9,273 nt of DNA from a bacterium (GTDB taxonomy: Bacteria; T1Sed10-126): NCBI GenBank assembly GCA_003557545.1, contig PWOD01000099.1, positions 1 through 9,273 on the forward strand. The letters run 5' to 3'. The notes beneath the pieces were generated by a model, which made no database searches, was not told the origin of the DNA, and saw only the letters and a list, made by a program, of their open reading frames with translations. A program made the position numbers and the translations under genes. Positions 4,242-9,273 of the stretch are shown here, piece by piece. Each line of letters starts with the position of its first letter. Position 1 is the first letter of the stretch.

Positions 4242-5888
4242 ATGAAAAAACAAATATTTACTCCGTCTTGCTTTTTGCTAATTTTCTTGTTGATTCCGAT
4301 GATTGCAGCTGTTTCCGTTGCTCACGCCGGTGGACCGAACATGGTAATCACAGATAATGTTGAAGATAATGTGTATTTTGAGGGGGATCAGTTCAGCATA
4401 GATATTGCTCATCCTGAGTTAGGAGCTGCTTCAGGACTAATCCCTGAAATCACCCAGCAGTTGCTGTTCGACGATCCTACTGATACTGCGAGTATAACTG
4501 AAACTGAGGTTTTCAAGTCATACGATATCAGCCCTATTCAAGGGGAAACATTCACTATTACTGGAACTGTCGACGAGGTAGATACCCCCGGTGTTATGGG
4601 GGCGATGATTATTTTAGATCGACCAGACCCTCCTCAGGGTCCCGGTGATAAAGAATTCTCTCTACCTTTTTATGATAGTGAAACCTTTGACGGCGGGGAT
4701 ACTTCGGTTTATGGGGCTGCGTTAACTGGTGTGAGTATTCCGCCCGGCGATGTAACATCGTCGCCGGAGTTAAGTGAATTTGTAAATTTATATGATACTG
4801 AAGATACAATCAGTTTTGTCCGTGAAGGTCAGGGAACAATAGCATTTGGTCCCGGCCTGAACATTATAGATAATAATCAACAGCTGGCAGCGCTGGAGGA
4901 AGGGATGAATATTGTGGGGGATGCTGCAAGCGAAGATTTTTATGTAGAAATCGATCCCGGGGTAGTTGGGTTTCTCGCCGAGCGTGAGGCTAAAGTTAGT
5001 ATGAGTAATATTTTATTTGATACTCCCACTATACATGTGACCGGTTTTGGTGATCTTGCCGGCCTGCTGAGTGATACTGACCCAAGGGCTAATGAAACAG
5101 CAGAATTGATTGGGGATGTACTGAGCTTTAAGGTGGATAATTTCAGTCGCTACACGGTTCTTGAAAAAACTGAATATAGTGGACCTAACTGGTATGTGTC
5201 GGCTGATACGGGGAGCGATCAATATGATGGGTCGGTTCTATTTCCTTTTCAGACAATTTCTAAGGCCCTGGCTCAAACAAAGTCGTTTCAAGAATCCGGT
5301 GAGTATCACAATATTAATGTTATGGCTGGTCTGTATCAGGAAGAACTGTTTGTTGATACCGGCGGTGTATCAATTCTTGGTTCCTGTTCAGAAACCACAA
5401 TAGTTGATTTTGGTGATAGTACTGAAGTTACAGGAGCAGTAGGTTTAACGGTGCGGTCGGGCAATGATTTGACAGCTATTGCTGTTAGGGATATTCGGTT
5501 TAGAAATTTCTGGCGTGGTTTGGATTTAAAAGATAACAATACGGAGGTTTCTGGTGTGGTTGCAGAAAATATGGGCGAAATAGGGGTCAGAGTGGAGAGT
5601 TTACAGTTTTTTGCAGGTGATAATCTTAGCAAGAATAATCAATATGGCTATTATCTTAAAACGCTTATTGGGGGAGCTTCAAATCAGATAGCGACGAATA
5701 ATGATACCGGATTTTATATTGAGAAAAATGATGGTCAGCCAGCTGAATATTCTATAACAAGGCGATTAATAATAGTTATGCTGGATTTCATCTGGCAAAC
5801 AGTGGGTGGCGTAATGTTCTGGAAAATAATATCAGCCATGGTAACAAGCATGGTTTTGTCGTGGATAACAGTACTCAATCTGTGTTAA
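4242..5888 (+). CDS. secreted beta-helix protein, N-terminal part (frameshifted gene)
   Basis: The protein starts with a classic Sec signal peptide: KK, then a hydrophobic core from about residue 10 to 25, then cleavage after AHA at about 29. Residues ~30-313 form an acidic, beta-rich domain of unknown family ending VDNFSRYTVLE. At ~314 a DUF1565/right-handed beta-helix domain begins, with GPNWYVSADTGSDQYDGS, PFQTISKALA and NVMAGLYQEELFV, followed by rungs rich in N, G and V. Such domains occur in extracellular or surface proteins that bind or cleave polysaccharide. The genuine sequence ends near residue 503 (GQPAEY). After that the frame gives a hydrophobic, unlike-looking tail (RLIIVMLDFIWQ...) while beta-helix rungs continue in another frame, so the last ~45 residues are an artefact of a frameshift. 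The joined gene would run to 7840, about 1199 aa. The start is supported by the AAAGGGG site and the promoter upstream. Confidence 0.85.
   Translation: MKKQIFTPSCFLLIFLLIPMIAAVSVAHAGGPNMVITDNVEDNVYFEGDQFSIDIAHPELGAASGLIPEITQQLLFDDPTDTASITETEVFKSYDISPIQGETFTITGTVDEVDTPGVMGAMIILDRPDPPQGPGDKEFSLPFYDSETFDGGDTSVYGAALTGVSIPPGDVTSSPELSEFVNLYDTEDTISFVREGQGTIAFGPGLNIIDNNQQLAALEEGMNIVGDAASEDFYVEIDPGVVGFLAEREAKVSMSNILFDTPTIHVTGFGDLAGLLSDTDPRANETAELIGDVLSFKVDNFSRYTVLEKTEYSGPNWYVSADTGSDQYDGSVLFPFQTISKALAQTKSFQESGEYHNINVMAGLYQEELFVDTGGVSILGSCSETTIVDFGDSTEVTGAVGLTVRSGNDLTAIAVRDIRFRNFWRGLDLKDNNTEVSGVVAENMGEIGVRVESLQFFAGDNLSKNNQYGYYLKTLIGGASNQIATNNDTGFYIEKNDGQPAEYSITRRLIIVMLDFIWQTVGGVMFWKIISAMVTSMVLSWITVLNLC
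5747..5765 (+). other. apparent -1 frameshift (one-base deletion) splitting the secreted protein gene
   Basis: The upstream frame reads ...GQPAEY up to 5750. The continuing beta-helix, FYNKAINNSYAGFHL, is readable in the frame starting at 5750 and is open from 5747. Restoring a single T in GAATATTCTATAAC, making GAA TAT TTC TAT AAC, gives an uninterrupted beta-helix. Loss of one T from a TTT run is the simplest explanation. No slippery heptamer of the X-XXY-YYZ type is present, so programmed frameshifting is unlikely. It is either a real inactivating mutation or a sequencing/assembly error. Confidence 0.75.
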
Positions 5889-7840
5889 GAGGTAATTCTA
5901 TTGAAAATAACAGCACAGCCGGGATTAAGGTTGGTAACGGGAGTTTTTACAATAAGTTTGTTCAAAATACTCTCGCCTCAAACGCCGGTAAAGATTTTCT
6001 TATTGAATCTGCTGAAGTCACAGATTATTTTAGCAAAAATAACCTCTACAGCGGCGTAAGTAATACAGTTGAGCAAGAACTTGATTTCACTCGCAATTAC
6101 TGGGGAACCAGTAGTCGTTCTGAAATATTGGGGATGCAGTCAGGAGACGAGGCGGACTCGATTATCTGGCTCCCTTTCAGGACCAGTCAGATCGATACAG
6201 CCGTGGGGGCCGATACCATAGCACCATCAGCGCCGGATATTGTAGTTGCGGACACGGACACGCTTGGTGAGATAACCGTTGAGTGGACTGTGCCTGCTAC
6301 CAACGAGGACGGCTTTTCGCCAGCTAATATCGACGGCTACAGGTTGTACCGATTTACTGAAAGTGATACAGATGATTGGGAAAACTATTTTATTTATCAG
6401 GTCGAGGATGCCGCTGAAACCAGCTACATTGATAATCAGATCAGCGCCAATACCAGCTACTTTTATCGTGTTGTCGCTTATACTGAACATACCGGACCTT
6501 ATGCAGATAAATTTTATAATCGTAGCTGGTACTCTGCCAGTTATGAGACCGAACAGACAATAGATGCGGAGATTGAGTTTTTTCAGGAGACTGTACATGA
6601 TACCAGGGTTACAAATATTTCGATTGCCGGAATATCCAGTGGTCCGGAAGAATTGGAATTTTCCTGGCGTTATAATGAAGGGCCCTGGCAGATTGACCAG
6701 CTTGGTGAGTTTGAACTGACAGGCATATCTCTTGAACCGGGCAGTAATTTGATTGAGGCCCGTTTGCGGGATAATTCTGATACGGTTTATCATGAATTGA
6801 TGATAGTGAGATATTATCCAGTAAAATTTAGCTGGCGGCGACCATTTCAATGGGAGCTTGTTCCGGGTGAAGTGAAGATTAACATCGGTTTAAATGCTCT
6901 TGCCGGCGATACAGTAGAATTGAGCTGGGCATTAAATGACATGGAAGATACGTTGATTGCGATTGATGATAGTCTTGCCTATGGTGATAGTGCTGATTCT
7001 ATCCAGCTTACAATGGACTTTCCTGATCCGGAACCGGGTCGGTATCAGCTAACCCTGCAACATTTCAGTCTGGATGGGGAGGAACTTGTTAATTATACGC
7101 GGACAGTTGTACAGGATCCCCGGGCAGAGCTTTTTGAGCCCTCCGCTGGTGAAGCTGAGGTTGAATTTAGTGGACGGAATCTGAAAGGAACATTTTCGGC
7201 TGGAACGCTTGTTTCAATCTCGGATATGTCGATTGATCTGTCTGATACTGTGCAGCTTGCCAATGCTGCCAGTGGTGAGATTTATGATTCGGTGCATAAT
7301 ATAGCTGATGATTCGTTGACGCGGTTCCGCCTTTCTGCCGACACGGAGGGTACTTTTGAGTTGGAACTTCCGTTTAATATAATGGAAGCAACTGTGATGG
7401 GGGTTGATGCGGAGGATCTTGAAATATATCGTCTGAATGAAGCAGAGGCCGTCTGGGAGCGGACCGGTGTGGTGACTCGTGATCGCCGGCAGGTAGATGG
7501 TGATACCTGGGTTGTGGAGGCAGAAGTGACCGGCTTTTCTCTGTTTCAGATTATGGCCAGTACCAGGGCAGAGGGACTGGATGATTTTATTGTTGGTCCC
7601 AATCCGTATCGGGCAAGAAGTGATGATTTTATAAGGTTTTACTTCGATTCAGAAGATGGTCCATTTGATATAGATATCTATACGATCACCGGTCAACAAG
7701 TTTACAGTGTAAGGTATACGGGGCAGGATTATTATGATTGGACCGATGCGCAGGATGTGGCGAGTGGTTATTATATTTACCGGGTGAAGGATCGAGGTAC
7801 TGGTGAAGAAAAAACCGGTAAGCTGGCGATTATTCGGTAA
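5861..7840 (+). CDS. secreted beta-helix/FN3 protein with FlgD/T9SS-like tail, C-terminal part
   Basis: This is the downstream portion of the gene that starts at 4242. The GTG at 5861 is only the first possible start in this frame, has no convincing ribosome binding site, and coding similarity extends back to ~5750. Order of domains: remaining beta-helix rungs (NSIENNSTAGIKV, then NKFVQNTL) ending with FTRNYWG; a fibronectin type III domain from ~6221 (APSAPDIVV...ITVEW...GYRLYR...SYFYRVVAY); one or two Ig-like beta domains; a domain ending VTGFSLFQIMAS; and a C-terminal ~86-residue tail beginning DDFIVGPNPYR, with DIDIYTITGQQVYSV, YDWTDAQDVASGYYIYRV and TGKLAIIR. That tail fits the FlgD Ig-like / type IX secretion (T9SS type A) sorting domain, which in T9SS organisms directs export and surface anchoring. 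Whether this organism has a T9SS cannot be seen here. The product is likely extracellular and adhesive or polysaccharide-binding. No catalytic residues can be assigned. Confidence 0.85.
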   Translation: MDNSTQSVLRGNSIENNSTAGIKVGNGSFYNKFVQNTLASNAGKDFLIESAEVTDYFSKNNLYSGVSNTVEQELDFTRNYWGTSSRSEILGMQSGDEADSIIWLPFRTSQIDTAVGADTIAPSAPDIVVADTDTLGEITVEWTVPATNEDGFSPANIDGYRLYRFTESDTDDWENYFIYQVEDAAETSYIDNQISANTSYFYRVVAYTEHTGPYADKFYNRSWYSASYETEQTIDAEIEFFQETVHDTRVTNISIAGISSGPEELEFSWRYNEGPWQIDQLGEFELTGISLEPGSNLIEARLRDNSDTVYHELMIVRYYPVKFSWRRPFQWELVPGEVKINIGLNALAGDTVELSWALNDMEDTLIAIDDSLAYGDSADSIQLTMDFPDPEPGRYQLTLQHFSLDGEELVNYTRTVVQDPRAELFEPSAGEAEVEFSGRNLKGTFSAGTLVSISDMSIDLSDTVQLANAASGEIYDSVHNIADDSLTRFRLSADTEGTFELELPFNIMEATVMGVDAEDLEIYRLNEAEAVWERTGVVTRDRRQVDGDTWVVEAEVTGFSLFQIMASTRAEGLDDFIVGPNPYRARSDDFIRFYFDSEDGPFDIDIYTITGQQVYSVRYTGQDYYDWTDAQDVASGYYIYRVKDRGTGEEKTGKLAIIR

Positions 7841-8020
7841 AGAGATTGATCAACAGTGGTTATGGCAGGATATTTGTTTAAAAAGCTGGAACTGTTACAA
7901 GCCAGGATATGCTGTCACAGGTAGTTTGAACATCATATTTAGTCTGCTGCTGGCTGCTTAACCGTCTTGTTCGATCCGGTAATAGTTGCTTTTATGCTCT
8001 GCTTGTCCGTGCTTTTTCCC
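7841..8020. other. intergenic segment without recognised features
   Basis: I find no convincing terminator for the secreted protein gene and no gene. Weak -10-like TATGCT boxes at 7908-7913 and 7993-7998 could belong to a promoter for the structured leader that follows. The second, with TTCGAT 17 bp upstream, would start transcription near 8005, but its -35 is poor. Confidence 0.35.
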
Positions 8021-8160
8021 AGAAAAAATTCACCTTTCAAATTTTTAATCAAGCTGGGAGCTATGAAGCAAAGGTGGCTACCGGGAAGCAGGTGACGAAT
8101 TTTTTTGCTAATGGTAAAATAGTTTGATATTTTTTACCGGTGATGGAGCTCACCTTATAA
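8021..8160 (+). ncRNA. candidate riboswitch aptamer and switching region of the antiporter leader
   Basis: A closing stem pairs AAAAAATT (8023-8030) plus CACCT (8031-8035) with AGGTG (8090-8094) plus AATTTTTT (8098-8105), leaving a 3-nt bulge ACG. It encloses a ~54-nt G/A-rich core with small hairpins AGCT-GGG-AGCT and GGT-GGCT-ACC and an unpaired-looking GGGAAGC. Next come hairpin 8113-8119/8132-8138 (GGTAAAA/TTTTACC) and hairpin 8139-8143/8150-8154 (GGTGA/TCACC) with loop TGGAGC. TCACCT occurs at both 8030-8035 and 8150-8155, and AGGTGA at 8090-8095 can pair with either, so the folds exclude each other. Loop GGAGC (8145-8149) is complementary to GCTCC (8178-8182), the foot of the following terminator, and could act as an antiterminator. 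This layout is typical of attenuating riboswitches. Placement before a cation:proton antiporter suggests an ion-sensing class such as the Na+ (DUF1646-type) or Li+ (nhaA-type) riboswitches, but I cannot match it by eye. Confidence 0.55.
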
Positions 8161-8177
8161 TTGCGATAGTGCTGATG

Positions 8178-8227
8178 GCTCCTGTATGTTCTCGCTGGCG
8201 AGGACATACAGGAGCTTTTCTGTTTTT
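8178..8227 (+). terminator. intrinsic terminator (attenuator) in the antiporter leader
   Basis: Arms GCTCCTGTATGT (8178-8189) and ACATACAGGAGC (8204-8215) pair perfectly. The stem extends by five more pairs (one G-T wobble) to a CTGG tetraloop at 8195-8198, giving 17 bp in all. TTTTCTGTTTTT follows at 8216-8227. It ends one base before the GAAAGGA ribosome binding site and 16 bases before the antiporter ATG, and lies ~340 bp beyond the previous gene, so it more likely controls read-through into the antiporter than ends the upstream gene. Confidence 0.85.
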
Positions 8228-8243
8228 GAAAGGATGATTTTTT

Positions 8244-9273
8244 ATGCTGCAGGGTGTTGTTTTAATAATTTTAGCAGGTTTTTTAGCCGGGGAGCTGGCC
8301 GGTAAATTAAAATTACCGAAACTTATTGGAATGCTGCTGGCAGGAATTGTTATCGGTCCCTATATGTTGGATCTGCTGCCGGCTGTGATACTCAATATTT
8401 CTGAAGAAATCCGACTTTTTGTACTGCTGGTTATCCTGTTTAAAGCTGGTCTGGGACTTGACCGGGGGAAACTACTTTTACAGGGGAGCGTGACGCTGCG
8501 GCTTGGCTTTTTACCGGCGGTTATTGAAACTCTTGTTGTGGCTGTTGCAGCGCGCCGGCTTTTAAACTGGGAATGGCTGCTCTGTTTTTTGTTGGGTTGG
8601 ATTATCTGCGCTGCATCACCGGCTGTGATAGTACCGATGATGCTCTGGTTGAAAGCAGAAGGCTGGGGAGCCAAAAAGGGGATTCCGGATCTTGTTCTGG
8701 CTGGTGGAACAATAAGTGATGCTGTGGCGGTTACTATGTTTGGAATTACGGTGAGTATGATCCTCGGTGAGTTGGGCGGTGGGCTGTGGATGCAGTTGGG
8801 ATATATTCCGATAAAAATAGTTCTGGGTATAGTATTTGGCTATCTGGCAGGAAAACTATCTCTGGTTCTAATGGATATATTAAAGGTTAGTGGTAATCAT
8901 GTGAAAAAATTAATTATTAGTTTGGGATTGGGTCTTCTGTTGCTAATTGGCAGCAATTATTTACCTTATTCTGAATTTCTGGCAATAATGGTCCAGGGGT
9001 TTGTGATTCTTGAGTTGAATCCGGTCAGCGCTCGGCGGCTGCGGGTGGGTGTGGATCAGCTCTGGAAAGTTGGTGAAATCTTTCTGTTTGTATTGATTGG
9101 TGCTGCAGTAAATATTAATCTGCTTTACTCGGCTGGAGCTGTAGGACTCGCTATAATCATAATTGGTCTTGTGATTGGCCGGACCGCAGGTGTGTTTTTG
9201 TCGACTCTGGGATCGAATTTAAACAAGCAGGAACGACATTTTATTGTGGTTGGCCAGATGGCTAAAGCCACAG
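8244..9273 (+). CDS. cation:proton antiporter (CPA/NhaP-like), 3' end outside window
   Basis: The frame is open from ATG 8244 to the window edge (343 codons), with GAAAGGA at 8228-8233 as ribosome binding site. The protein is very hydrophobic, with about ten predicted membrane helices, starting MLQGVVLIILAGFLAG. It matches the monovalent cation:proton antiporter (CPA) fold: K-LP-x-LIGMLLAGIVIGP near residues 22-39, ILFKAGLGLD (64-73), ASPAVIVPMMLWLK (124-137), KGIPDLVLAGGTISDAVAV (145-163), and near the end KQERHFIVVGQMAKAT, where relatives have ER-x-F...PKATVQAA. The role is exchange of Na+ (or K+/Li+) for H+ across the cytoplasmic membrane, for pH and salt homeostasis. The ion-binding motif reads S158-D159 rather than the D-D or N-D pair of other family members; only D159 is a sure candidate ligand. 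An estimated 40-60 residues are missing at the end. Expression is probably governed by the attenuator leader upstream. Confidence 0.88.
   Translation, partial: MLQGVVLIILAGFLAGELAGKLKLPKLIGMLLAGIVIGPYMLDLLPAVILNISEEIRLFVLLVILFKAGLGLDRGKLLLQGSVTLRLGFLPAVIETLVVAVAARRLLNWEWLLCFLLGWIICAASPAVIVPMMLWLKAEGWGAKKGIPDLVLAGGTISDAVAVTMFGITVSMILGELGGGLWMQLGYIPIKIVLGIVFGYLAGKLSLVLMDILKVSGNHVKKLIISLGLGLLLLIGSNYLPYSEFLAIMVQGFVILELNPVSARRLRVGVDQLWKVGEIFLFVLIGAAVNINLLYSAGAVGLAIIIIGLVIGRTAGVFLSTLGSNLNKQERHFIVVGQMAKAT

Follow-up and report, generated by a model that had tools for sequence, protein, structure and literature searches.

In the characterised transcriptional fluoride riboswitches, the pseudoknot of the aptamer is formed co-transcriptionally with or without the ligand; if fluoride is lacking, the pseudoknot is invaded by the terminator hairpin, while with fluoride the locked aptamer resists and transcription goes on (PMC11077080). 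For the Bacillus cereus system a U-G wobble pair was described as critical for switching, and for the fluoride riboswitch the pair A40-U48 was described as a linchpin (PMC11077080). Fluoride riboswitches are not confined to exporter genes. Na+/H+ antiporters represent the commonest riboswitch-linked class after the fluoride exporters, with pH homeostasis as the explanation given, and the occurrence of a fluoride riboswitch before a Na+/H+ antiporter gene is thereby already documented (PMC11139923). Cation/H+ antiporter genes are likewise controlled by the Li+-I/II and Na+-I/II riboswitches (PMC9646797), which differ in RNA structure and ligand from the RNA described here.

In this study, we analyzed a window of 9273 bases, which is the whole of one contig (C88) from a genome of the candidate phylum T1Sed10-126. 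Two genomes of 2.15–2.2 Mb have been described for this phylum, which was found in hypersaline soda lake sediment (PMC11382960). In a preliminary description, the leader of an antiporter gene in this window was taken for a cation-responsive riboswitch with an attenuator. According to our analysis, the best explanation, in which we have very high confidence, is that positions 8130–8220 encode a putative transcriptional ON fluoride riboswitch, and that the downstream antiporter would help the cell to withstand fluoride.

Identification of the aptamer family

By searching the whole window with cmscan, a match to the fluoride riboswitch family RF01734 was obtained at positions 8130–8191 of the forward strand, on which all features of the locus described below are located. 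The match (41.6 bits vs. a gathering score of 34; E 5.7e-9) covers model positions 1–64 of 64, and RF01734 is the only Rfam family reaching gathering level across the window. Because the match is complete, above the gathering score and the sole one of this level, the RNA is read as a fluoride riboswitch. Its score is modest for the family, with other loci in our sample reaching up to 67 bits. According to the Rfam alignment, the aptamer has retained its conserved letters TGATG and GATGG. When the region 7841–8243 was searched with permissive thresholds, the fluoride family was found with an E of 2.5e-10, and the runner-up family had an E of 0.72 and stayed far under its own cut-off. PyrR was rejected at 22 bits vs. 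a gathering score of 54, and besides fluoride no other Rfam family gave a credible match in this region.

The preliminary description had named Na+ (DUF1646/Na+-I), Li+ (nhaA-I, nhaA-II) and c-di-AMP switches as candidates to be checked with Rfam models. Such an assignment is suggested by the gene itself, as it encodes a cation:proton antiporter and as Li+ and Na+ riboswitches control genes of this type; however, none of these families was found up to an E of 10 in 7841–8243, where the fluoride model matched instead, and the probability that the leader is a Na+, Li+ or c-di-AMP switch is virtually nil. The attenuating, ion-sensing riboswitch before a cation:proton antiporter gene is thus retained on the basis of RF01734, with fluoride, an anion, as the predicted ion in place of Na+, Li+ or a second messenger. 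Also, the suggested new ion- or second-messenger-sensing RNA has to be given up, since the RNA belongs to the known fluoride class and does not represent a new ion-sensing class.

Structure of the aptamer and the terminator

The aptamer starts with the P1 hairpin at 8139–8154, in which GGTG (8139–8142) pairs with CACC (8151–8154), as derived from pairing and covariation. The P1 loop contains the 5′ strand of the pseudoknot, GGAGCT (8145–8150), which forms six pairs with 8177–8182; U8150-G8177 at pseudoknot position 1 is a wobble pair. The P3 hairpin (8163–8172) consists of only three base pairs, GCG (8163–8165) with TGC (8170–8172), and closes the loop ATAG. It is followed by the conserved stretch TGATGGCTCCT at 8173–8183, identified from the Rfam alignment, within which A8175 and U8183 would by homology correspond in position to the A40-U48 linchpin.

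Folding revealed an intrinsic terminator hairpin at 8177–8216 (8177–8194 paired with 8199–8216, 18 bp, loop CTGG) with −31.6 kcal/mol, then TTTCTGTTTTT; the U-rich terminator tail TTTCTGTTTTTG occupies 8217–8228. The terminator with its T-run, which had been noticed before, is therefore present with 18 instead of the 17 base pairs claimed. The complementarity seen earlier between a loop GGAGC (8145–8149) and the terminator foot was also right, since GCTCC is located at 8178–8182; this loop is part of the pseudoknot 5′ strand. Positions 8177–8182 are consequently used twice, as the 3′ strand of the pseudoknot and as the 5′ foot of the terminator. At the level of sequence, this overlap is established along with the membership in the aptamer family, the covariation and the linkage to the antiporter gene described below. 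The functional unit of aptamer and terminator spans approximately 8130–8220. Further downstream, a probable ribosome-binding site AAAGGA was found at 8229–8234, 9 nt before the ATG; the sister genome, from the same phylum and family, has AAAGGAGG.

A convincing promoter was not found before the aptamer. A possible promoter at 8092–8120 (GTGACG, 17 nt spacing, TG-extended TAAAAT), from which transcription would start at approximately 8127, is a weak consensus match (9/12) within chance expectation and is without counterpart in the sister locus.

The RNA is alike to the Bacillus cereus crcB transcriptional switch (RF01734) in P1, in P3, in the six-pair pseudoknot with its U-G wobble and in the use of the pseudoknot 3′ strand as terminator foot. 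Because this overlap is the same, ON control by fluoride, the logic of the B. cereus switch, is predicted for the window RNA as well. Unlike the B. cereus switch, it precedes not crcB but the gene for an NHA2-like, Usp-bearing antiporter, and its P3 is short. In the proposed mechanism, the nascent RNA would fold P1 and P3, whereupon the P1 loop would pair with 8177–8182 as pseudoknot. Fluoride, predicted to be bound with Mg2+ in the aptamer, would lock the pseudoknot and block the terminator, thereby allowing the polymerase to enter the antiporter gene. In the fluoride-free state, the terminator would displace the pseudoknot and transcription would end at approximately 8220. The induced antiporter would then aid fluoride tolerance, most likely via the cytoplasmic pH and hence the distribution between HF and F−.

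Conservation and covariation

In the sister genome, the same arrangement of aptamer (42.7 bits), terminator and antiporter gene (79% identical) is present. Conservation spans 8137–8243, starting at the aptamer and continuing through the terminator, while a tRNA-Asp gene and unrelated sequence are located upstream of the aptamer in the sister, and none of 8021–8129 is kept. Between the two loci, the P1 pair 8141:8152 is U-A in the window and C-G in the sister, the P3 pair 8165:8170 is G-U and A-U, respectively, and the terminator stem shows compensatory changes.

For a broader comparison, 11 leaders of NHA2-like genes, including one below the gathering score (G022, 24.6 bits), were aligned with MAFFT without use of structure. 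P1 and the six-pair pseudoknot together were paired in 99.1% of cells and the pseudoknot alone in 100%. Changes on both sides were found in four pairs, two in P1 and two in the pseudoknot, and the covariation score was reached by 0 of 500 shuffles; sliding the register by 1–3 columns reduced pairing to 46–62%. At pseudoknot position 1, 10 of the 11 leaders have the U-G wobble. The covariation expected among homologous leaders was hence found for P1 and the pseudoknot, and the part of the earlier model at 8021–8129 is unconserved in the sister.

These data also bear on whether the locus could be a constitutive terminator or attenuator with a decayed aptamer blind to fluoride. Its score is under that of most relatives and P3 has only 3 bp, as would fit decay, but the sister keeps the core with compensatory changes and the conserved letters mentioned above are intact, so that we regard a decayed aptamer as extremely improbable.

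The upstream leader region

The preliminary description had placed the sensing domain in a closed multi-helix structure at 8021–8129, whereas the actual aptamer is the short pseudoknot of 8130–8191. The multi-helix region folds with a z of −1.37, an equally good fold was reached by 20 of 200 shuffles, and the region is absent from the sister; 8021–8160 likewise folds no better than shuffles. By shuffle folding and by the missing conservation in the sister, the upstream helices were ruled out as a part of the aptamer, and for the same reasons 8021–8129 is to be dropped from the unit. The whole leader folds better than 200 of 200 shuffles (z −5.0), which is probably owed mainly to the terminator. 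The duplicated TCACCT (8030 and 8150) and the AGGTGA (8090) are present in the sequence as given earlier, but 232 of 500 shuffles likewise contained a 6-mer twice together with its reverse complement, and the competition proposed for these repeats is at chance level. Apart from this, a 19-nt inverted repeat (84%) was noticed, by which 8023–8041 could pair with the ribosome site at 8225–8243; the match was equalled in 16 of 500 shuffles, the arm is unconserved in the sister, and we regard it as weak.

The same observations allow weighing a larger composite switch, in which 8021–8129 with the TCACCT/AGGTGA repeats and the 8023–8041 arm would add a second layer of control. The z of the whole leader and the rarity among shuffles of an arm able to pair with the ribosome site speak for it; against it stand the fold of 8021–8129 when taken alone, its complete lack of conservation in the sister, the frequency of equal repeats in shuffles, and the fact that the sole nearby promoter-like site would initiate downstream of this region. 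A second layer is thus highly improbable, and the simple fluoride riboswitch at 8130–8220 remains our reading.

The antiporter gene

The gene controlled by the predicted riboswitch (8244–9272) starts 52 nt after the RF01734 match and encodes a PF00999 protein (E 8.3e-28). Its open reading frame is uninterrupted until it runs off the contig. The missing 3′ part with a Usp domain is located at the end of another contig, C90 (L064, 1117–1653, reverse strand), so that C88 and C90 are probably adjacent. An intact orthologue has 522 amino acids with PF00999 and a C-terminal Usp domain. The nearest solved structures are those of human NHA2/SLC9B2 (PDB 7b4l and 7p1i; E 2.6e-41), whose antiporter domain aligns with residues 2–391 of the orthologue. 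Unlike the human protein, the bacterial orthologue has the Usp domain, and the ion-site motif is DD in human NHA2 and SD in the window protein: the invariant ion-site aspartate (D159) is kept and a serine precedes it, replacing the first aspartate. The protein is a predicted NHA2-like cation/H+ exchanger of the CPA family, which may exchange Na+ or Li+ for H+ and has a putative role in fluoride resistance.

Elsewhere in the window, two overlapping open reading frames in different frames (4242–5888 and 5861–7840) can be read as one surface beta-helix/fn3-like protein. It is split by a frameshift near 5740–5790, after which the repeat pattern resumes in the other frame; the frameshift could be real or an assembly error.

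Fluoride riboswitches before NHA2-like antiporter genes

A search of 386 genomes (E at most 1e-20) detected the NHA2-like antiporter in 21, and in 20 of them the domain is largely complete. Directly upstream of the gene, a fluoride riboswitch at or above the gathering score is present in 10 of these 20, plus one weak match, and the genomes belong to distant lineages. The linked genes are scattered on the tree with approximately six changes of state, which implies repeated gain or loss of the linkage. Linked and unlinked antiporters did not form separate clades, nor were they separated by the ion-site motif. In the set of the 30 top-scoring riboswitch loci (L014–L043), PF00999 genes follow 13. 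As side observations, a gene for a dynamin-family GTPase follows the fluoride riboswitch in three other genomes (L017, L029, L033) and a DUF6062 gene in three more (L026, L037, L042). Beyond the routine linkage to Na+/H+ antiporters, the same riboswitch recurs before the NHA2-like subfamily in approximately 10 of 20 genomes, and the fluoride channel Fluc is missing from the 19 examined genomes with this subfamily. No paper joining fluoride riboswitches with NHA2/SLC9B2 was found in a search that mostly covered openly accessible literature, and the linkage may thus be described elsewhere.

Fluoride exporters and the possible role of the antiporter

Fluc (PF02537) was found in 0 of the 19 genomes examined with the NHA2-like antiporter vs. 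154 of 386 overall (Fisher p 5e-5, calculated with genomes treated as independent, while a few pairs share a family). Left out of this count were two of the 21 genomes, G148 with a partial match to the antiporter and G333 with a remote one (28% identical); G333 does have Fluc. A hand count of riboswitch-bearing genomes in a smaller sample gave 0/7 vs. 20/49, a weak contrast. In the two genomes of the phylum, no CRCB match was obtained, with both being approximately 92–93% complete and a missed gene possible.

The only CLC of both phylum genomes bears GREGP, is without GREGT/V or GEVTP, and is clearly not CLC-F. This single homologue has 771–777 amino acids (L012, 1162–3477, and L013); in that of L012, CLC and CBS are fused to an ATPase domain of the histidine-kinase type (HATPase_c), which is an unusual architecture. 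CLC-F was not recognised in the antiporter genomes, where the classifiable CLCs have GREGP or GKEGP without CLC-F signatures; since several CLCs gave no readable motif, this absence is less firm than that of Fluc. As positive control, a riboswitch-linked CLC (L030) showed GREGT, GNNLI and GEVTP.

The co-occurrence suggests that the antiporter may be the main fluoride defence in genomes of this kind without a known exporter. As to how it would serve as the principal defence without Fluc and CLC-F, we can offer only a speculative idea, which we consider rather unlikely: the NHA2-like antiporter would move F− itself, or it would take up H+ in exchange for Na+, whereby HF leaves the cell. Proton import for Na+ would shrink the pH difference by which F− is trapped in the cell, and HF would exit. 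With the tempting misreading as a cation sensor corrected to a predicted fluoride sensor, the antiporters akin to human NHA2 form a subfamily that appears to be repeatedly under predicted fluoride control in genomes without Fluc. This subfamily could reveal how organisms lacking Fluc survive fluoride and, if the proposed role is true, would join the fluoride channel and the CLC-F antiporter as a third route.
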